Source: Scytonema millei VB511283
GTDB taxonomy: Bacteria > Cyanobacteriota > Cyanobacteriia > Cyanobacteriales > Chroococcidiopsidaceae
Reading direction: 5' to 3'
Length of the DNA stretch: 64,000 nucleotides
Assembly: GCF_000817735.3 (NCBI RefSeq)
Contig: NZ_JTJC03000006.1
Coordinates: forward strand, 135,783 to 199,782
Shown: piece after piece, positions 1 to 11,839 of the stretch
Layout: each line of letters opens with the position of its first letter
Numbering within the stretch: position 1 is the first letter of the stretch
Made by a program: the position numbers and the translations under genes
The notes under the pieces: model-generated
What the model was told of the DNA's origin: nothing
Seen by the model: only the letters and a program-made list of their open reading frames with translations
Database searches by the model: none

Positions 1-1
1 A

Positions 2-1753
2 TTGTATGATGCCTGCTTGGAGCGGATGCAAACTTTCTTGGATGAAAATTATCGCTTTAGCGACGATAAGTACGTTCAAAAAATCCAACAGTTTAGCCAA
101 ATTCTTCAACAAATCAACCAGCACCTTAATCGTCGCTATTTCATTCTCAAGTCAATCGTCATTAACAACTTGTATGGCGTTGACATCATGCAGGAAGCGA
201 CGGAAATTTGCAAGCTCCGCTTGTTCCTAAAATTGATGGCTCAAGTCGAACCTGATGCTTCACGACAGAACTACGGCGTAGAACCACTGCCTGATATTGA
301 TTTCAACATTCGTGCTGGTAATACGTTGGTTGGTTTTGCTAGCTACGATGAGGTGAAAAAAGCTGTTGAGGGAGAGAAGCAGAAAAAGCTAGATCTATTC
401 GGTGACATGGCTCGGATCGACGAAAAGGCAAAGGCTGTCGATCAAAGTTTTCAAAATTTCCGCAAACTTCAGACTGAAAGAGCTGATGGGCGCTTAACTT
501 CTCAAAAGAAGGCAGAACTTAGTAGCAAGCTTCAAGAGCTGAGAAACGAGCTTGACCGCTACCTAGCCGAGAAGTATGAGATGGGGCTATCTAAAAAGCT
601 AGCAACTTTCAAAAAGTGGAGGGAAAGTCACCAACCGTTTCACTGGTTTGTTGAGTTCTACGGCATTGTCAACAGGGGGGGGTTTGATGTGATTATCGGA
701 AATCCTCCGTATGTAGAGTGGTCAAAGATTAAGGGATACGAACTACTCGCAGGTATTTACAAAACTAGAAGCTGTGGCAATTTATATACCGTTATATGTG
801 AGCGATCTTACAGACTTCTACAAAACCAAGGCTGCTTTGGCATAATTGTGCCGATAAGTTGTATTGCTACTAATCGAATGGCTCCCTTTCGAGACTTATG
901 GAAGGAAGAACATTTAGATACGTATGCTAGCCATTACTCTGGTGATGCACATCCTTCGGTACTCTTTCAAGGAGTTAAATTTAGGTTATCTATCTTACTA
1001 CAGCATAAAGGTCTATTAACTTCAAACATATACAGTACACAGTTTCAAAAATGGTTGCCGGAGGAACGAGAAAATCTGTTTCAGTTAATTGAATATGTTG
1101 AGGTTGAACCAACTTGCATTCGCCTTAGCCTTGTTCCTAAAGTTGCCACAAAAATACATGCTTCTGTTTTGTACAAACTCTGTAGCAGTCACTCCCTAGT
1201 TCAGACCAGTATCTACTCAAATTCAGAATATACGGTTTATGCTCATAGAATTGTGGCACACTTTGTCAAAGCCTTTGATTTTATTCCATTCTTCAAAAAT
1301 GAGCGAGATGGCGAGAAAAAATCTGAAGACTACAAGACTTTTCATACTAATACCAAATTGAACAGCGACACTTTAGCTGCCTTACTAAATAGTAGTCTAT
1401 TCTATATCTGGTTTGTGTCATATTCAGATGTCTATCACTGCGGGCGTGAAGTCATTCTTGACTTCCCTTGCGACATAGCACTTCTGGCAAAAGCCCTGGG
1501 GAAGAAACTATCTGAGGTGAAAGATCGCCTCATGAAAAGCTTACAAGCTCATAGTATCCGACGCTGTATTCCTTACAAAGCTACTGGATTAGTAGAATAT
1601 GATGAATTTTATCCTCGACTCTCTAAGTCAACTATGGATGAAATAGATCGCATTCTAGCTCAACACTACGGCTTTACAGACGAAGAACTAGACTTCATCG
1701 TTAACTATGACATCAAGTATAGAATGGGGCGGGATTTAGAGGATGAAGATTAA
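2..1753 (+). CDS. Eco57I-like DNA adenine methyltransferase / type IIG restriction-modification protein, 3' part
   Basis: This is the C-terminal 583 residues of a large restriction-modification enzyme; the gene enters from the left window edge, so the first codon read here is not its start. The class-N6 adenine methyltransferase catalytic motif NPPY is at residues 234-237 (context DVIIGNPPYVEW), preceded by LPDIDFNIRAGNTLVG at about 97-111, a signature of Eco57I/type ISP/BREX PglX-like enzymes. Between them lies a charged coiled-coil-like segment (about 115-200). The S-adenosylmethionine-binding motif I should be upstream of the window. The region after 300 is probably target recognition. Such proteins methylate adenine in a specific site, often with an N-terminal nuclease that cannot be seen here. 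It lies in the putative transposon cargo. The family call is solid; type IIG versus BREX/DISARM methylase is undecided. Confidence 0.85.
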   Translation: MYDACLERMQTFLDENYRFSDDKYVQKIQQFSQILQQINQHLNRRYFILKSIVINNLYGVDIMQEATEICKLRLFLKLMAQVEPDASRQNYGVEPLPDIDFNIRAGNTLVGFASYDEVKKAVEGEKQKKLDLFGDMARIDEKAKAVDQSFQNFRKLQTERADGRLTSQKKAELSSKLQELRNELDRYLAEKYEMGLSKKLATFKKWRESHQPFHWFVEFYGIVNRGGFDVIIGNPPYVEWSKIKGYELLAGIYKTRSCGNLYTVICERSYRLLQNQGCFGIIVPISCIATNRMAPFRDLWKEEHLDTYASHYSGDAHPSVLFQGVKFRLSILLQHKGLLTSNIYSTQFQKWLPEERENLFQLIEYVEVEPTCIRLSLVPKVATKIHASVLYKLCSSHSLVQTSIYSNSEYTVYAHRIVAHFVKAFDFIPFFKNERDGEKKSEDYKTFHTNTKLNSDTLAALLNSSLFYIWFVSYSDVYHCGREVILDFPCDIALLAKALGKKLSEVKDRLMKSLQAHSIRRCIPYKATGLVEYDEFYPRLSKSTMDEIDRILAQHYGFTDEELDFIVNYDIKYRMGRDLEDED

Positions 1754-2047
1754 TAAATACTGGTTTTTATGAAACGAGTTTTTCTATAAAGAAAAGCTAC
1801 TATAATTTTCCTAAAATTGTAGAAGTAGTAGGTTAAAAAGAATTGTTTTGAAACTCAAGCTACTGGAAAAAAACACATCGAACTTTTGACTAGAATTCCT
1901 GCCACCTACTAATTCACCAACCAAAATTTATTTTCAGCATGATGCGCTAATGACAGAAATTCTACAACAAAGATGTGTTTTGAGTGCGGCTTCTATAGAT
2001 GATGGAATGATTGATAAGTTTGTTTGCAGTATGTTTTATCACTACTA
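1754..2047. other. Intergenic, AT-rich, with a possible 32-codon leader ORF
   Basis: No recognised gene. A short frame opens at ATG 1950 and stops at TAA 2046-2048, overlapping the ATG at 2048 as TAATG. That arrangement would allow translational coupling to the nuclease gene that follows. The 32-residue product resembles nothing I know and may be chance. Confidence 0.3.
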
Positions 2048-2643
2048 ATGAACCGAAAAATACTTTTATTTTCTACCATTTTAGCCTTAGAACTCTTTGA
2101 TCTATATCTAAGAAAGCAACCACTGCTCATCAACCTACACTCTCAACTTCTAATGCTACTCCAGTTCAGGCAACCTATCGAGTTAAACGAATTGCTGATG
2201 GTGATACGATTACTGTTGTTGATGTGCGAGGTGCTGATGTTAGAGTGAGATTTTCTTGCTTGGATGCACCAGAGGTTCCACACACGAAGCAGGAACGGGC
2301 AAGCTACGATCCTATTGACATCGACCAATTTAAATGGGGTCGCTTAGCACGTAATCGACTCACTCAACTGATTCACCAAGCAGGCGATCGCGTAGCTTTA
2401 ACCGTAGTAGATACTGACCGCTACGGGCGTAAAGTGGCGGATGTTCGATTGTCTAATGGAGCATTGGTACAAGAGATACTGATTCGTGAAGGACTAGCAG
2501 TAGTTTACAAGCAGTACATTAAAAGCTGTTCTAATGCCACACTAGTTGAGCAGGCAGAAATTCAAGCTAGACAGCAAAAAATAGGAGTCTGGGGCGATCC
2601 TAGTTTCATTCCACCGTCAGAGTGGAGACACAATAATAAGTAG
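2048..2643 (+). pseudogene. Thermonuclease (SNase-like) gene with an apparent frameshift
   Basis: From about 2101 to 2643 the frame encodes a staphylococcal-nuclease-like (OB-fold) domain. It has the DGDT calcium/catalytic motif (codons 2197-2208), the RVRFSCLDAPE segment holding the Arg and Asp/Glu active-site residues, and DRYGR matching the second catalytic Arg region. Known family members are secreted, calcium-dependent phosphodiesterases acting on DNA and RNA. The only hydrophobic signal-like start, MNRKILLFSTILALELF, begins at ATG 2048 in a different frame. The nuclease frame itself has a TGA at 2098 and no ATG, GTG or TTG before the catalytic motif; the first candidate, GTG 2224, would remove DGDT. 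A one-base loss near 2095-2105 explains this. A true frameshift, programmed slippage, or an assembly error are all possible. Confidence 0.7.
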
Positions 2644-2911
2644 CTTAGCAATTTGTTTTAAAGTCTTATTGCTTCTAGAACTTGCACCAAAATAATTAAA
2701 CATTATATGCGATTAGGAGTTCTAATTTTCTACTAAGATGAGATATTAGCCTCATTCTTGCTACTTAGCTGTAAGTCAATTTTTTTTAAAAAACTAATAG
2801 ATTCTAACCAGTGATAAATTCTTTACATTTAGTTCATTAAAAATTCATGCTTGTCGTAATTTCTCCTTTTTTAAATGGGATAAATAAAAATAATGTAATA
2901 ATAGTAGCTTT

Positions 2912-3649
2912 ATGACTATAGCTAAATACGATCAAGTCTCCATAGCTCATAATCGTGATTCCGATCCCTTAGTGTATCGATTACAGACAACTCAAATGCT
3001 AAAAATGCTGTCAAGACTTCTCCCAGGACACGAATGGAAGTCAAATTGGCTGCACGATAACGTTAGAAGAAATGGCTCTATCTCTTTTGATATGGGTATA
3101 ACACTGAGTTATAAGGGGCAATCCTTGGGTGCAGGGCATGAACATGAATGGGAAATTCAAGTCAATCCTAGATGGGCAGAGAAATTGAACCAAGCCTATA
3201 GAGAGATAACTGCTCTAGTCATCGGTCAAGGAGTGGTAAAAAAAACAGAGAAGACATCTAAAGCTCTACCTGGAAAAGTAGATAATGGCAACCATCTTAG
3301 AGCGGATGACACGTATACTTGGAATAATTTATCATTTCGCTCTCCAGCAGAAATTGTCGTAGCTAAGGCATTAGAGAGTAGGGGGTTACTATTCTTTCCT
3401 AATGCTAAGTGCCGGATTCGCAATCGACTAGGGATCGCAGAGACGAAAGAAACAGACTTCTTAGTTTTCTATAAAGGAACTTCACGAATTTTAGAGGTAG
3501 ACGGAAAAGAATACCATCAGCAAGCAATAGAAGATTATAGAAGAGACAGAATGTTTGATAAATATGGAATTCGGTCTACTCGTTTTACTGCTTTAGAGTG
3601 CCTTAACAATGCCGAGCAGGTAGTCGAAGAGTTTCTGGAGCTATTTTGA
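2912..3649 (+). CDS. PD-(D/E)XK endonuclease-like protein (DUF559/Vsr-like C-terminus)
   Basis: The product has 245 residues. The C-terminal 100 residues show a PD-(D/E)XK nuclease core: Glu147 in SPAEIVVAKAL, Asp182 in ETDFLVF, and Glu195...Lys199 in ILEVDGK, followed by the helix YHQQAIEDYRRDRMFDKYG and a final strand RFTALEC. This matches the layout of DUF559/very-short-patch-repair-like nucleases, which cut DNA with divalent metal. The N-terminal 120 residues are unassigned. The ATG start is the first in frame, and the preceding 267 bases are AT-rich without another gene. It sits among other nucleases in the putative transposon cargo, so defence against foreign DNA is a reasonable inference, not shown. 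Confidence 0.7.
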   Translation: MTIAKYDQVSIAHNRDSDPLVYRLQTTQMLKMLSRLLPGHEWKSNWLHDNVRRNGSISFDMGITLSYKGQSLGAGHEHEWEIQVNPRWAEKLNQAYREITALVIGQGVVKKTEKTSKALPGKVDNGNHLRADDTYTWNNLSFRSPAEIVVAKALESRGLLFFPNAKCRIRNRLGIAETKETDFLVFYKGTSRILEVDGKEYHQQAIEDYRRDRMFDKYGIRSTRFTALECLNNAEQVVEEFLELF

Positions 3650-3889
3650 TTTATTAGACTAAGTTTTGAACAAGGTCATATATGGTTAGTATCTTGTGTA
3701 TTATATCAACTACACATTACTGTAATTTTGTGATAAATTTTCAAGTTTAGCCTTTGATTTCTTAAGTATTAAATATATTTTCTGATGAGAGCGGCAATAC
3801 TGTTTAGATTTTACTTACCTAACTGTTTCGGCACACCCATAGCATCGTTTGCTTTGCTATAGTTGCCTGATAACAAAAGGCAGCAGAAA

Positions 3890-4846
3890 ATGAGTAGTAA
3901 AGACCTTAACTACTATGTCACCAAATTCACTAAGCTACGAGTAGACCGCGCTCACGGTAGCGTAGCACCCCACAAGCCTATTTTGCTATTGTCAGTCATT
4001 GAGCTAATCGAGCAGGGTTTGCTGAGTCACAATCAAATTCCCTTATCTGCCGAGCTAATTGCTGCTTTTCTAAAGTTATGGCAACCGCTAGGCTCAAATG
4101 CACATAATGCGGATATCGGAATGCCATTCTTTCACCTTAAAAGTGATGGATTTTGGCACTTTAAACCTAACCCAGGATTTGAAGCACTACTGTTTTCTGG
4201 AGCCAGAGTTAGGGCAGTTGGGGTACTGCGGCAAGCAGTAGAATATGCTTACTTAGATGACGAGCTGTTTGAGTTACTACAACAACCCGTATCTAGAAAC
4301 TCTCTCATTGCTGTCTTGCTTGACAATTGGTTTGCTGATAAAAATCAACAGATCGAGGAGATTCTAAGCAGGAATGCCCTTGAAGATTTTCAGAAAGAGC
4401 TATTAGCTACTGGTGGAAAAGTCTACCAGGAAGCTGAGTTGAAAGACGAAGCCAAAGTAGTTGTTAGAGATGCCACATTTCGCAGGGCTGTTATTTCAGC
4501 ATATAATCGCCGCTGTGCATTCTGTGGGCTGCAAATACTCGACTCTCTATGTCAAAACGTCGTAGACGGAGCGCATATTATGCCCTTCTCTCAGTTCTAC
4601 GACGACCGGATCGATAATGGTATTTCACTTTGCAAAAATCACCACTGGGCGTTTGATAAGGGTTGGTTTAGTATCGGTGATGACTTTACTCTCTTGGTGA
4701 AGGACGACCTACATGAAGATGCTCCCAACTGTAGACCTATGAAGCAGTTCAATGGCGATCGCATTCGTCTGCCAGTTCACACGCAATACTATCCGCGTCT
4801 AGAAGCTTTGCGCTGGCATCGTCAGCACGTATTTGGAGCAGCTTGA
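3890..4846 (+). CDS. HNH endonuclease, probable McrA-like (phosphorothioate/modified-DNA) restriction enzyme
   Basis: I prefer ATG 3890, 12 bases after AAGG, over the in-frame TTG at 3863; this gives 318 residues. The C-terminal third is an HNH nuclease: a CAFCG zinc knuckle, VDGAHIMPFS carrying the first His, NGISLCKNHHWAFDKG with Asn and the CxxHH metal/zinc residues. The N-terminal domain has APHKPILLLSVIELIEQG, typical of COG3440 predicted restriction endonucleases. Their best-studied members (ScoMcrA type) bind phosphorothioate or methylated DNA through an N-terminal sulfur-binding domain. That substrate is inferred from the family and is untested here. Neighbours are further nucleases. 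No dnd genes are visible in the window. Confidence 0.75.
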   Translation: MSSKDLNYYVTKFTKLRVDRAHGSVAPHKPILLLSVIELIEQGLLSHNQIPLSAELIAAFLKLWQPLGSNAHNADIGMPFFHLKSDGFWHFKPNPGFEALLFSGARVRAVGVLRQAVEYAYLDDELFELLQQPVSRNSLIAVLLDNWFADKNQQIEEILSRNALEDFQKELLATGGKVYQEAELKDEAKVVVRDATFRRAVISAYNRRCAFCGLQILDSLCQNVVDGAHIMPFSQFYDDRIDNGISLCKNHHWAFDKGWFSIGDDFTLLVKDDLHEDAPNCRPMKQFNGDRIRLPVHTQYYPRLEALRWHRQHVFGAA

Positions 4847-4914
4847 AATGGCTTGTTGTAACAACCGCTATGCTGTCATATGTTAGAGTCTGATTGCCAG
4901 GGGGTTGAAGAGGT

Positions 4915-5757
4915 ATGAGTAAAAAACCTAAAGGTTGGTACGAAGCGATCGCTATCCGTCCTGTCATGCACGTCGATGGTTATGAGAGTTCTGAAAAGGT
5001 ATGCAGCTACGTTGCCGAGATCTACTTTTCTAGTACCGAAGAAAAGCTTCACCAAAAGCTAATTACTAATAGTAAAAACTCTACATATGTCAGTCTTTAC
5101 ACCCTATATAAAGTAGGGGAAGCTAAATGCCCTACTTATTGGGTAGGTAAAGACTTATTAACTGCTCTGATGCAATCAGACTTGACTATTGAAGCTGATA
5201 GCTTGCATTGGGCAATGAAGACTGGAATTTTTATGCTACCCAAGAATGTAGTTTTTTCTCCAGAGAAACGTAGCATTCAGGCAATTTTTTGGCACTTCGA
5301 TCCAAGTAACGGCTATCTTTACTTGACTGCAAGCGATGGAGCCAGCTTCTTTTGCCGTAGATTTAAAGCTTACGACAATTTAAGAAAAATTACTTATGCC
5401 GATGTTCAAGATATTAATCCACAAGCAGTTGTAGAATTTAACGAATATTTGCAATCAATCTTTCTGCGGCTAATCCTGATTATGGAATGTCGCTCTGAAT
5501 TAGTAGATACGGAATCTAAAGTAATCAGAGTTAATCAAGGATTTGCTAAGGATAAGGCAAAGGATTACTACGAACCTCTATGGGTTGGGAGAAACTATCG
5601 CGTTCAGAGGGAAGAGACACAAGATAAGGGTGGTACTCATGCATCTCCCCGCGTCCACTGGCGCAGAGGTTATTTACGCAATCAGCCATATGGAGAAGGT
5701 AGGCAGCAGAGAAGATTGGTTTGGATTGAGCCAGTCTTAGTTATAGGAAAAGGATAA
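4915..5757 (+). CDS. Uncharacterised protein with AcrVA2-like C-terminal motif
   Basis: The product has 280 residues and no signal peptide or transmembrane segment. The start ATG has a good ribosome site (GAAGAGG). The C-terminal 60 residues contain HASPRVHWRRGYLRNQPYG followed by RLVWIEPVLVIG, an H-x-RRG...G...W-x-P-x-x-V pattern. I recall the same pattern at the end of AcrVA2, the Moraxella inhibitor of Cas12a synthesis, and in many plasmid- and phage-borne homologues. The middle part (GIFMLPKNVV, AIFWHF) also fits the predicted beta-rich region of that family. Most homologues have no known role, so anti-CRISPR activity is only a hypothesis. It lies between an HNH nuclease and a DUF262 protein in the putative transposon cargo. 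Confidence 0.6.
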   Translation: MSKKPKGWYEAIAIRPVMHVDGYESSEKVCSYVAEIYFSSTEEKLHQKLITNSKNSTYVSLYTLYKVGEAKCPTYWVGKDLLTALMQSDLTIEADSLHWAMKTGIFMLPKNVVFSPEKRSIQAIFWHFDPSNGYLYLTASDGASFFCRRFKAYDNLRKITYADVQDINPQAVVEFNEYLQSIFLRLILIMECRSELVDTESKVIRVNQGFAKDKAKDYYEPLWVGRNYRVQREETQDKGGTHASPRVHWRRGYLRNQPYGEGRQQRRLVWIEPVLVIGKG

Positions 5758-5934
5758 GTTTTTAAAAACCTTGGTAAATTAACCTGAGTACAATCAATTA
5801 AAGTCTATAAGAACTTAGGTTGTTGCAAGCGGTGGAAAACTGAGCGGAGTGCTAAGAATAATATTGACCCCTACAACTCTCCTTGGTAGTTTAAAAGTAA
5901 AGGTAGTTATCTTTGAGTTGAAATAATACCAGAA

Positions 5935-6462
5935 ATGTCTGAACCAGAATTTCAAAATAAATATTATCAGTCTTCAGATGACGAGTTAGGAAACAAGTAC
6001 GAATCCGCTAAAATTAACCTGCTTCAACGGCACGAAAGAATCAAGCTACCGATATTAGCCCATGATATCTATGCTAATCCTAATTACACAACGATTGATA
6101 CTGATTGGTCATCTACTTGGAATTCAGTCAAGCAGTCAAGATTGATAGAATCATTAATTGTCAATATACCCGTGCCACCAATTATTCTATATGAGGAAAG
6201 CTACGGAAAGTACAAAATTATTGATGGTAGAGAAAGACTGAAAGCGAGCGCTGATTTTTACAGCAATCGATTAGCTCTGACTGGGTTAGAAATTGAGTTA
6301 GAGCTAGATGGATGCACTTGTGCTACTCTTCCTACAGAAATTCGATGTAAACTCGACCGTCGCTCTCTATCTCTTATAAGTGTTATCCCTAAAAGTGAAC
6401 TAAGTCCAGATCAAGTAGCTAGTTTAATAAAAATTGTTACTGAGCGTTTGGGAAATAAGTAA
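5935..6462 (+). CDS. Short DUF262 (GmrS/ParB-like fold) protein
   Basis: The product has 175 residues. Residues about 60-130 match the DUF262 core: W-x(4)-KQSRLIESLIVNIPVPP, then a strand pair, then IIDGRERLKASADF, a variant of the usual DGQQRLT nucleotide-binding motif with Glu for Gln. DUF262 is the N-terminal NTPase/nuclease-associated domain of GmrSD type IV restriction enzymes and of many defence proteins. The protein stops at VTERLGNK, where longer family members continue with an R-L-N-T-G-G motif and a C-terminal nuclease, so it is either a stand-alone minimal form or truncated. The next gene starts 15 bases later, suggesting a two-gene unit. Confidence 0.7.
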   Translation: MSEPEFQNKYYQSSDDELGNKYESAKINLLQRHERIKLPILAHDIYANPNYTTIDTDWSSTWNSVKQSRLIESLIVNIPVPPIILYEESYGKYKIIDGRERLKASADFYSNRLALTGLEIELELDGCTCATLPTEIRCKLDRRSLSLISVIPKSELSPDQVASLIKIVTERLGNK

Positions 6463-6477
6463 AGGTACGGAAATGCT

Positions 6478-6990
6478 ATGAACGATAAGGTAGAGGATTT
6501 GTTAATAAAAATAAATCAACAAGCAAAAATAATTGATAATGCTGTTAAAAATAACCAACAGTTTCGCTACAAGAGTCATCAAAAATTAATATTAGAAACT
6601 GGAAAACCTTTTCTAGAAAGAGTAGATCCTACTCCATTTCAAGGAAAACCTAAAAATTGTTTTCAAAATTGTTTTGAAGCGTTACTAGAGTATCCAAAGT
6701 TAATCTATTGTGAAGGATACGCTACTGATGATAGTTTGCCAATAGCGGTTCTTCATGCTTGGTTAGTCAATGATGAATTTGAAGTCATAGATCCTACATG
6801 GAACAACAAAGCTACTACAGAATGTACTTATTTTGGGGTAGCGTTAAATCACGAATTTGTTATAGATTTTTCTATAAAAACTAAGCATTATGGAATTCTA
6901 GACAGTGATTATTTAAACGATTATCAGCTACTAAAAAGTGGGTTTCCTGAAGGCGCACTCTATACTAAGTTTCATTCTCAATATAAGTGA
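6478..6990 (+). CDS. Papain/transglutaminase-like cysteine hydrolase, uncharacterised
   Basis: The product has 170 residues. It shows an ordered Cys-His-Asp set: Cys61 in KNCFQNCFEAL, His93 in LHAWLV and Asp105 in VIDPTW, followed by an aromatic YFGVAL strand. This order and spacing fit small papain-like-fold proteins found on plasmids, phages and genomic islands (pattern C-x-x-N ... E-G-Y-A ... H-A-W ... D-P-T-W). The reaction is unknown; proteolysis, deamidation or amide exchange are all possible. The gene follows the DUF262 gene by 15 bases and is the last one before the transposon end, so co-transcription with DUF262 is likely. Confidence 0.65.
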   Translation: MNDKVEDLLIKINQQAKIIDNAVKNNQQFRYKSHQKLILETGKPFLERVDPTPFQGKPKNCFQNCFEALLEYPKLIYCEGYATDDSLPIAVLHAWLVNDEFEVIDPTWNNKATTECTYFGVALNHEFVIDFSIKTKHYGILDSDYLNDYQLLKSGFPEGALYTKFHSQYK

Positions 6991-7214
6991 GAGTATCAGC
7001 CTAGAAAGTAGTAGCTTTAACGCGATCGCTTGTAATTTAGTGTTTTTATAAGTTTATCTGAATCTAAATGAGGATTGTATAAGTTAGAAAAATAAATTTT
7101 CAAGGTTAAGTTAGATTAATACTCACTCTCAGTACTAAACAAAAGTCAGCGGACTTCCTCAATGAGAGTTAGGCTATAACTAGATTGTAATTAGTTATTC
7201 ACTTGCCCCTTTGA
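6991..7214. other. AT-rich non-coding stretch before the transposon end
   Basis: No gene, tRNA or CRISPR repeat is seen. It contains one HIP1 site near 7022. It joins the papain-like gene to the terminal repeat array. Confidence 0.5.
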
Positions 7215-7337
7215 GCGACATTAATTTGTGAACGATAAAATTGAATTCTCGTAAGACACAAATTTGTGAAAAACGTCATCAATTTGTTAAAAGCGACATT
7301 AATTTGTGAACAGCGACATCTAATTTGTGAATGTACA
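7215..7337 (-). mobile_element. End of a Tn7-like/Tn5053-like (CAST-type) transposon
   Basis: Read on the minus strand from 7337, the sequence begins TGTACATTCACAAATTAG and then holds five diverged copies of a motif close to ACAAATTAATGTCGC. On the plus strand they lie at 7215-7230, 7252-7268, 7272-7288, 7293-7308 and 7313-7329. A terminal TGTACA followed by several inward-facing transposase-binding repeats is the known layout of TnsB/TniA-type transposon ends in cyanobacteria, including type V-K CRISPR-associated transposons. The element body is therefore on the lower-coordinate side. The five bases outside the tip, 7338-7342 (GAAGT), are the predicted target-site duplication; the partner end is outside the window. 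Confidence 0.75.
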
Positions 7338-7350
7338 GAAGTGAGCTTCA

Positions 7351-7524
7351 TTACTGCACCTCTTCTTTGATAATTTTCACAATATCGTCATTAATATGAC
7401 CTTGACTTTTGCGGTCTAGTCTATTTTTCTCTAGTTGGCAGACTCGCTCGATAATTTGCCTAATCTCTGGCGCAGCAGTTACTATCGGCTCCTGCACGTC
7501 ACTCATATTTGATTCTGTTATCAT
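7351..7524 (-). CDS. Small uncharacterised protein, first gene of an interrupted operon
   Basis: This frame of 57 codons starts at ATG 7524 and stops at TAA 7351. The product begins MITESNMSDVQEP and is acidic to mixed-charge and helix-prone, with no recognised domain. Its stop codon overlaps a new ATG (TAATG at 7353-7349) that runs only four codons (MKLT) before reaching the transposon tip at 7337. The downstream gene of this pair has therefore probably been cut by the transposon. An internal ATG at 7506 is an alternative start. The pairing by stop/start overlap is what makes the frame believable. Confidence 0.5.
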   Translation of the reverse strand: MITESNMSDVQEPIVTAAPEIRQIIERVCQLEKNRLDRKSQGHINDDIVKIIKEEVQ

Positions 7525-10495: not shown

Positions 10496-11038
10496 TTAAT
10501 AAATTATATTTTCACCTGTAGTATTTATTAGCGATCGCCCGTACCTATCCCCGGTTTCAGAGGCGCGCTTAGAGGGCGATCGCTAGTTTTAAACTACACA
10601 ATTAAAAATTTTTATCTAGCCTAAGATAGACAAACGATCGAGGTTCAAGACTAAATTTTCTAACCTAAGGAGAGTTGATTTTATTTCGAGTATCTCTTTA
10701 GAAATACTCTAATTTTTGCTTGTTACTACTATTGATATATAGTTGCTCTTAATCCAACAAAAATGAAAGTTTTTTGGTAAAAATAGACGTAACGATGAAT
10801 TTTTATCATTTTTCTGAGCTAAAACCACAAAATGCAGAAATCAAACATAACTTCTGAGAATTAATTTTTTCTAACCTAAGTCTAACCTAAGGTAGATATG
10901 CGAGTTTTAGAACTAACTATACAAAGCGCAAGTTTACCAGTAAAAGACAATTAGAATTCTGCTGGGAGTGCCAAATCTGGTGCAGAAATTCGTTTAATAG
11001 ACTCCAAAAAAAGCAAACTGTATGCGAGGATGACAAAA
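10496..11038. other. Long leader region with repeated TCTAACCTAAG motif
   Basis: No gene. The motif TCTAACCTAAG or a close variant occurs at 10615-10625 (TCTAGCCTAAG), 10659-10669, 10870-10880 and 10881-10891. Several promoters or regulator sites may control the exported protein that follows. Confidence 0.5.
10870..10892 (+). promoter_or_regulatory. Pho-box-like tandem repeat
   Basis: TCTAACCT-AAG-TCTAACCT has the 8-base unit, 3-base spacer, 11-base period layout of the cyanobacterial Pho box (consensus CTTAACCT, 3-base gap), with six of eight bases matching in each unit. It lies about 150 bases upstream of the exported-protein gene at 11039. Control by the phosphate response regulator SphR/PhoB is therefore a possibility, not proven. 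Confidence 0.4.
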
Positions 11039-11839
11039 ATGAATGTTAAATTTTTCCATTCAACTGCTATTGTATTTAGTATTGCAACAGTTGTAGCAGT
11101 TGCTAGCAAACTTCCGGCATCAGCGCAGACCTCAAACTCTAAAATTTCTACTTCTGCTGCTGCTTTGAAGGATAGATCGAGAGTTAACACGATCGCGCAA
11201 GTCGATCCGACCTATCCCAGCACTCAACCATCTACCCCCACTACAGATCCGACCTATCCCAGCACTCAACCATCTACCCCCACTACAGATCCGACCTATC
11301 CCAGCACTCAACCATCTACCCCCACTACAGATCCGACGACTCCTACTACAGAACCAACTACCCCAACAGAACCACCAGCAACTAATCCAGATCCCATTGA
11401 ACCAGGATCGTCTACCCGTGGTGGTTCTAGCTACGTAGGTGTGGGAGCGAATATTGGTATAGACGGTAGTACGGCTTTAGGTGACACTAACTTTACCGTC
11501 ATCAGTAAAATCGGATTAACTAATGCTGTCTCTGCACGTCCGTCAGTCATCATTGGGGACAACACCACCATCTTGATTCCCGTGACCTACGACTTTAACT
11601 TGCAACCTACAGGAATCGATACAGGTTCGGAAGCTGGTTCGATTTTTGCACCCTATGTCGGCGGTGGTTTGGGTATTTCTACGGGAGACGATAGCGATGT
11701 AGGACCAATGTTAACTGCTGGTGTAGATGTACCAATAGGCGAGCAATTTACAGCTAACGTAGGTGCGAACGTAGGCTTTTTAGATGATACAGAAGTAGGT
11801 ATTCAAATTGGTGTTGGCTATAACTTTGCTGGCTTTTAA
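11039..11839 (+). CDS. Exported beta-barrel-like protein with Pro/Thr repeat linker
   Basis: The product has 266 residues from ATG 11039, nine bases after GAGG; the upstream in-frame ATG 11030 abuts GAGG and is less likely. A signal peptide ends near ASAQT. Then come three perfect 14-residue repeats DPTYPSTQPSTPTT and further Pro/Thr-rich sequence, typical of an extended, wall-spanning linker. From about 140 the protein alternates hydrophobic and glycine residues (YVGVGANIGIDGS, IFAPYVGGGLGIS, VGIQIGVGYNFAGF) and ends in Phe, like small outer-membrane beta barrels. An outer-membrane location is inferred. Upstream Pho-box-like repeats may regulate it. Confidence 0.65.
   Translation: MNVKFFHSTAIVFSIATVVAVASKLPASAQTSNSKISTSAAALKDRSRVNTIAQVDPTYPSTQPSTPTTDPTYPSTQPSTPTTDPTYPSTQPSTPTTDPTTPTTEPTTPTEPPATNPDPIEPGSSTRGGSSYVGVGANIGIDGSTALGDTNFTVISKIGLTNAVSARPSVIIGDNTTILIPVTYDFNLQPTGIDTGSEAGSIFAPYVGGGLGISTGDDSDVGPMLTAGVDVPIGEQFTANVGANVGFLDDTEVGIQIGVGYNFAGF
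11204..11329 (+). repeat. Three tandem 42-base coding repeats
   Basis: Three identical 42-base units (11204-11245, 11246-11287, 11288-11329) encode DPTYPSTQPSTPTT. They appear base-perfect, so they are recent or kept homogeneous, and copy number may vary between strains. Confidence 0.9.

Follow-up and report, generated by a model that had tools for sequence, protein, structure and literature searches.

A type V-K CRISPR-associated transposon at the dnd locus of Scytonema millei, with guides and junctions that suggest homing and the removal of most dnd genes

The dnd locus of Scytonema millei VB511283 carries a CRISPR-associated transposon (CAST) of type V-K, and the structure of the locus suggests that the element homed there and removed most of the dnd genes. 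Observed at the locus are a whole element, guides which match the dnd operon, both junctions, and the absence of the dnd segment that relatives carry between them. The window, i.e., the whole stretch of 64,000 nucleotides that was analysed, corresponds to G000:C6:135783-199782 (contig C6 of the host genome, G000) and contains the target-proximal left end (LE) of the element. The partner end (RE) and the transposition genes are located to the left of the window on the same contig (Table 1).

Table 1. Coordinates of the element, its ends, its cargo, and its target (plain numbers, positions in the window; C6, positions on the contig)
Feature	Position	Strand	Remarks
CAST, whole element	C6:103758-143119		39,362 bp, tip to tip
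CAST part in window	1..7337	.	end of the 31-kb cargo between CRISPR array and LE
RE tip TGTACA, partner end	starts C6:103758		outside window; DNA search for end copy
tnsB	C6:105453-107207		Mu-transpos_C
tnsC	C6:107243-108064		TniB-like
tniQ	C6:108066-108584		TniQ domain
cas12k	C6:108629-110542		NF038191, 968 bits, 629/629 profile positions
CRISPR array and truncated repeats	about C6:110996-111880
Type IIG restriction-methyltransferase gene, 3′ part	2..1753	+	whole gene C6:134221-137535; PDLC03628, 1272 bits
Staphylococcal-nuclease-like protein, cargo	2224..2643	+
DUF559 protein, cargo	2912..3649	+
SBD-HNH protein, cargo	3863..4846	+	best family 'phosphorothioated DNA-binding restriction endonuclease'
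Three cargo genes	4915..6990	+	280 aa; GmrSD_N-domain, 175 aa; 170 aa
LE TnsB-type binding repeats, five, predicted	7215..7328	-	offsets 9, 30, 50, 70, 108 from tip
LE site 5	7215-7229	-	exact
LE site 4	7253-7267	-	weak, >3 mismatches
LE site 3	7273-7287	-	3 mismatches
LE site 2	7293-7307	-	exact
LE site 1	~7313-7328	-	ACAAATTAGATGTCGC, one inserted base
LE terminal TGTACA	7332..7337 = C6:143114-143119	-	outermost tip
First 14 nt of dndD	7338..7351	-	ATGAAGCTCACTTC; rest removed at LE; intact gene in relative G002
57-aa conserved ORF, target	7351..7524	-	directly upstream of dndD; no family match
A1 anchor protospacer	7368..7397	-	26/30 nt; truncated repeat unit at C6:111704
A1 PAM GTC	7398..7400	-	60 nt to LE
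S6 protospacer, same 57-aa ORF	7465..7494	-	27/30 nt; array guide at C6:111407
S6 PAM GTG	7495..7497	-

The first-pass annotation had attributed a terminal TGTACA with five inward repeat copies on the minus strand at 7215-7337 to a Tn7-like element of cyanobacteria that might be a type V-K CAST. It took these features for an end of the TnsB type, placed 1-7337 inside the element, and expected the core machinery to the left. This reading of the window end is supported. The TGTACA and the five copies are present, and the predicted TnsB sites are spaced as in other V-K left ends: in 18 other V-K CASTs, some without the full site set and one with an extra site at 173, the sites are found 9, 30, 49-50, 69-71, and 97-108 from the tip, in agreement with the offsets of the present end. 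The 15-mer of these sites occurs seven times in the window at three or fewer mismatches, against 2.75 expected, a number reached in 0 of 100 shuffles, and three of the seven matches are packed within 93 bp at the LE. A DNA search of the genome with the LE sequence returns one other copy, reversed, at C6:103754-103808. The second TGTACA end, for which a search to the left had been proposed, is thus found 39 kb away, which places 1-7337 inside the element. The sites of the partner end are located 9, 31, and 125 from its tip, an arrangement that resembles two RE candidates near tnsB in other V-K CASTs. The spacing of the TnsB sites therefore identifies the window end as the LE and the partner end as the RE.

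From left to right, the element consists of the RE, a tandem-HTH gene, tnsB, tnsC, tniQ, cas12k, the tracr region, the CRISPR units, about 31 kb of cargo, and the LE, so the whole core machinery, including the tracrRNA region and the CRISPR array, lies where it had been expected. The tandem HTH gene (C6:104252-104818, outside the window) is of the Xre type and adjoins tnsB. The assignment to type V-K is based on the full-length profile match of Cas12k and on the best PDB matches of TnsB, TnsC, TniQ, and Cas12k, all of which are chains from ShCAST structures; ShTnsC, ShTniQ, and ShCas12k are so named in these matches (ShCas12k at about 1010 bits), and the TnsB chain belongs to those entries too. 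A single copy of Cas12k is present in the genome. A general scan of the proteins between the RE and cas12k showed no TnsA. The tracr region is located 3′ of cas12k; 37 of 41 other Cas12k loci contain a counterpart with 75-92 percent identity over the stretch that aligns, and no Rfam match at the gathering score was found for it. In the usual V-K layout, the cargo is mostly placed between cas12k and tniQ and the array lies a short distance from the LE (PMC9938897). The present element differs, as tniQ precedes cas12k by 44 bp and the 31-kb cargo separates the array from the LE. A CvkR or Arc-type gene, which usually stands beside the cas12k start, would not fit into so short a gap. Where TniQ falls within the fetched stretch (6 of the 41 comparison loci), the gap to cas12k measures at least about 3 kb, and the matched anchors of the comparison loci lie 0.2-1.4 kb from their own sites.

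The CRISPR region comprises ten repeat-spacer units, seven of which belong to the array (S1-S7), and three follow truncated repeats (A1-A3). The truncated units thus form a tandem of three, not one; the second, which matches dndD, and the third are located at C6:111779 and 111850. The V-K anchor is defined by a GTN PAM and a protospacer 46-82 nt outside the LE (PMC9938897). The unit A1 fits this geometry, with a GTC PAM at 60 nt, and its protospacer is located in the small ORF before dndD, the LE being positioned 14 nt into dndD. It is almost certain that the element is a CAST which homed to dnd under the guidance of A1. The guide has two mismatches in 17 to the present target and matches it at 28/33 overall, slightly below its fit to the dnd ORF in G006, a more distant genome (30/33), which hints that homing to dnd is older than the present insertion. 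In G001 and G002, two genomes of the same genus, an intact gene comes after the 57-aa ORF; in G002 its length is 689 aa, and its best-scoring family is DndD at 151 bits, short of the family cut-off of 246. A dndD-like gene start follows the ORF in most other loci compared.

Anchors were also sought in 41 named Cas12k loci, with an anchor match defined as 17 nt with no more than three mismatches and a GT PAM. The anchor could be matched to a site in 32 of them, and 26 of these 32 sites overlap a tRNA gene called by ARAGORN; the counts were made by hand, and the six sites without such a call may include missed tRNAs. In the 25 matched loci with a single TGTACA-like candidate, the end is 23-66 nt from the PAM (54-66 nt in 23 of 25), and two of the loci with several candidates have candidates at 80 and 91 nt. 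No tRNA was called in the flanks of the present element (L003-L005, covering both flanks), and a tRNA attachment site was rejected for it on these grounds. A stretch like the small dnd ORF is also present about 5-6 kb past cas12k in two Brasilonema loci (L066, position 17248; L067, position 17813), where its strand points away from the CAST and the CAST anchor matches tRNA-Thr.

Three further guides match the dnd operon. The spacer S6 has a protospacer in the same 57-aa ORF as A1. The first 23 nt of S7 are identical to dndE of G002 (0 mismatches, PAM GTC) and differ from dndE of G001 at one position, and A2 matches dndD of G001 and G002 at 16/17 with a GTC PAM. All four protospacers (A1, S6, A2, S7) are on the dnd coding strand. 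A guide control was performed against a dnd library of 40 loci (204,630 bp, some overlapping), in which guides behind a similar repeat were collected from 85 other Cas12k loci, 73 of which yielded 419 guides. Matches of at least 15/17 with a GT PAM were obtained for 4 of 9 own guides, A3 having failed the repeat filter, and for 1 of 419 control guides. The Fisher p of 4.5e-7 is indicative only, as no more than about 1.5 kb of flank was covered for 44 of the 85 loci, the two sources of loci may have species in common, and the dnd library was picked after the own anchor match. This difference, together with the usual distance and PAM of A1 and the presence of the dnd cluster in relatives, leaves next to no probability for the view that the guide matches are coincidental and that the CAST inserted without targeting into an already decaying operon, even though off-site insertion is said to be far commoner in V-K elements than in other CASTs (PMC11406308).

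For the other six of the ten guides (S1-S5 and A3), no convincing target was found. The spacers S1-S5 have no convincing match among the fetched loci; against plasmids, S1-S4 gave no match and S5 gave one weak Streptomyces match (23 nt, E 0.4). Cas12k itself was found in two plasmid records, one of them partial. The unit A3 was rejected as a dnd guide, its matches being weak and without a PAM, with 3-mismatch matches scattered in eight genomes; the 2-mismatch match in the eight-genome search is the A3 unit itself. Neither 388 sampled genomes of the order nor the 85 Cas12k loci, 44 of which were searched with about 1.5 kb of flank only, yielded another CAST anchored at dnd. In the 388 genomes, the dnd anchor occurs with 0 mismatches at its own locus only and with 2-3 mismatches in 26 other genomes, and by eye a backwards control is scattered over a similar number of genomes as these 2-3-mismatch matches. 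The case for dnd homing by a V-K CAST is therefore that of one element.

The two junctions of the element belong to different genes. The 5-bp flanks are TCTAC at the RE and GAAGT at the LE, and the suggestion that GAAGT is a target duplication is rejected, since TCTAC takes its place at the far end. The RE is positioned inside dndE. Left of it lies the 3′ part of this gene (TIGR03184 positions 53-103, 54 bits, below the cut-off as a partial gene), followed by the dnd-associated methyltransferase TIGR04096. Both flanks are largely colinear with G001 and G002, where the distance from flank to flank amounts to 13,469 bp and 12,429 bp, respectively, and this segment is absent from the own locus. 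In G002 it contains dndD, two NCBIfam-unmatched genes (Uma2-like in appearance), dnd_assoc_4, two DGQHR/DndB-like genes, one unnamed gene, and dndC. A simple insertion with both flanks in one gene was rejected, as in the relatives dndD follows the small ORF and dndE is 12-13 kb away. Elsewhere in the window, the protein encoded at 11030-11839 has several PSTQPSTPTTDPTY repeats in its middle, and the repeat DNA is out of register with that of the relatives.

Neither dndC nor dndD was found in the whole assembly (17 contigs, 99.95 percent complete), so that part of dndE and the methyltransferase are the only dnd remains of the genome. As a positive control, the dndD query finds its counterparts in G001 and G006 at 95 and 80 percent, and in the relatives dndC (about 720-727 bits) and dndE score over the cut-off. 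Long repeats can collapse in an assembly, and the structure was judged from the assembly; a collapse of two CAST copies with loss of the dnd segment is nevertheless very improbable. Such a collapse is expected to leave the dnd segment as a contig of its own, the dnd genes are missing from a nearly complete genome, and the single copy of Cas12k makes it unlikely that two copies were merged.

The RE junction can be related to a guide as well. It is located 71 nt downstream of the S7 PAM in the right orientation, as measured on relatives, the host's own segment being gone; an insertion with a 5-bp duplication would have its LE at 76 nt. The spacing is 71 nt in nine of nine dndE loci from seven relatives (PAM GTC in eight, GCC in one), so a shorter host dndE linker that would bring S7 to the usual distance is not likely. 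A distance of 71 or 76 nt exceeds the 23-66 nt of the 25 single-candidate loci, which speaks against the S7 step, and falls inside the published range of 46-82 nt (PMC9938897). The assignment of the RE junction to S7 is probable. Nearly all natural V-K insertions are said to be explained by the att-site guide (PMC11406308). As off-site insertion is said to be much more frequent in V-K elements than in other CASTs, the RE junction could also be unguided.

The RE junction likewise bears on a simpler history, in which a single A1-guided insertion with a normal duplication was followed by an ordinary deletion on the RE side, through illegitimate recombination, that ended in dndE by chance. Such a history accounts for the LE, for A1, and for the absent duplication, and it would not be troubled by an RE junction outside the 54-66 nt of 23/25 comparison loci. 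An ordinary flanking deletion need not respect the RE tip, which is intact to its TGTACA, and it would have stopped by chance past the PAM of a protospacer matched at 23/23 and in the right orientation. A random end falls 46-82 nt past a given protospacer in about 0.3 percent of cases (37/12,429, by arithmetic). This history is consequently unlikely.

The preferred reading is that of two RNA-guided events at the dnd operon, the second of which, as intramolecular replicative transposition or as insertion and recombination, deleted the cluster, and it is considered highly probable as a whole. In the first event, A1 would direct Cas12k, TniQ, TnsC, and TnsB to the 57-aa ORF, with the LE placed 60 nt from the PAM. 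In the second, S7 would guide the element in cis and in the same orientation to dndE, which would remove the 12-13 kb between the two sites. A single CAST would be retained, with unlike flanks and without a target duplication. In other replicative transposons, a move in cis to a second site in the same orientation deletes the DNA in between, so that an old flank and a new one border the element and no duplication is present. A V-K element lacks TnsA and is replicative, so a second event in cis could delete the intervening dnd DNA. With A1 and S7 directed to one strand, cis replicative transposition predicts the structure found here. The absence of TnsA from V-K elements and the formation of cointegrates in E. 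coli are documented in PMC11406308, where their fate in native hosts is stated to be unknown.

The chemistry of the deletion is what we infer from this structure, and recombination is a second route to it. Separate insertions at dndD and dndE could have been followed by homologous recombination between two 39-kb copies, a variant within the preferred reading which, taken singly, has an appreciable but minor probability. The product is the same, and the co-stranded protospacers mean that the copies would be direct repeats. Two close copies would be needed despite any target immunity of the kind described for Tn7 and some other transposons (PMC11406308). Between transposition in cis and recombination as the deletion route, the balance is nearly even, and the two cannot be separated by the sequence alone.

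Adjacent deletion by intramolecular replicative transposition is well known for Tn3, Mu, and IS elements. The present locus is alike in that one copy is kept between one old and one new flank without a duplication, and unlike in that both ends can be assigned to the element's own guide RNAs. The type V-K CASTs ShCAST, AcCAST, and AnCAST share with the present element Cas12k, TnsB, TnsC, TniQ, the TGTACA ends, the LE spacing, the tracr region, the truncated anchor repeat-spacer, and the GTN PAM on the LE side. They usually target a tRNA gene, whereas here the target is a protein-coding operon, to which four guides are directed, and the flanks differ without a target duplication. Type I-B1 and I-F3 CASTs contain TnsA and use another effector. 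RNA-guided homing to a coding sequence is found in type I-B1 (comM), and homing to a conserved chromosomal site in type I-F3 (PMC11406308); the portion of this source used here describes no guide-bounded deletion for either type.

The cargo in the window contains a gene with a possible relation to dnd. The cargo genes follow a PLD-SNF2 helicase, which precedes the type IIG gene outside the window. The SBD-HNH protein has a single NCBIfam match, NF045808, whose cut-off of 180 bits it misses at 142.5 bits. Its N-terminus carries a domain with a match to the sulfur-binding domain SBDHga1 (8h0l, 3.5e-27), an HNH domain is present, and the alignment appears to show the His, Lys, and Pro that PMC6224610 names for the pocket. 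In these features it is putatively similar to the ScoMcrA/EcoWI-type SBD-HNH endonucleases, from which it differs in its score below the family cut-off and in an M in place of the tyrosine lid. Relatives of all four genes of the block 3863-6990 (SBD-HNH, 280-aa, GmrSD_N, 170-aa) occur together in the cyanobacterium L184 and three of the four in L183; no TnsB or Cas12k match was found in those 20-kb stretches.

In Streptomyces, ScoMcrA and dnd were reported to be unable to coexist, and the dnd island was reportedly lost when the gene was introduced (PMC3009677). An anti-dnd replacement element, whose guides excise dnd by paired transposition and whose SBD-HNH protein then attacks phosphorothioated DNA, is a doubtful extension of the preferred reading; if true, the nuclease would be kept only without dnd, and the host would be barred from regaining it. 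In a sample of 386 genomes of the phylum, 39 encode a strong SBD-HNH homologue (E up to 1e-40), and in 35 of these a dndC above the cut-off is present as well, so the family as a whole tolerates dnd, and incompatibility as the driving force is weakened. Of 27 aligned homologues, 8 retain the histidine of the pocket, with no clean split of groups. The proximity to dndC in cyanobacteria, within 10 kb in 33 of 39 genomes, stands against the dnd association of less than 3.6 percent reported in PMC7461809.

No joint mention of Cas12k and dndD was found in the literature searched, which covers V-K homing in part. The dnd operon is enriched and vertically inherited in Cyanobacteriales (PMC8569181), and in the present element it serves as the attachment site of a V-K CAST with several guides to one operon. 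Type V-K CASTs use a single Cas effector (PMC11406308). The locus is a natural case of a CAST whose two ends can each be attributed to a guide, with the intervening DNA missing, and it points to programmable deletion between guide sites.
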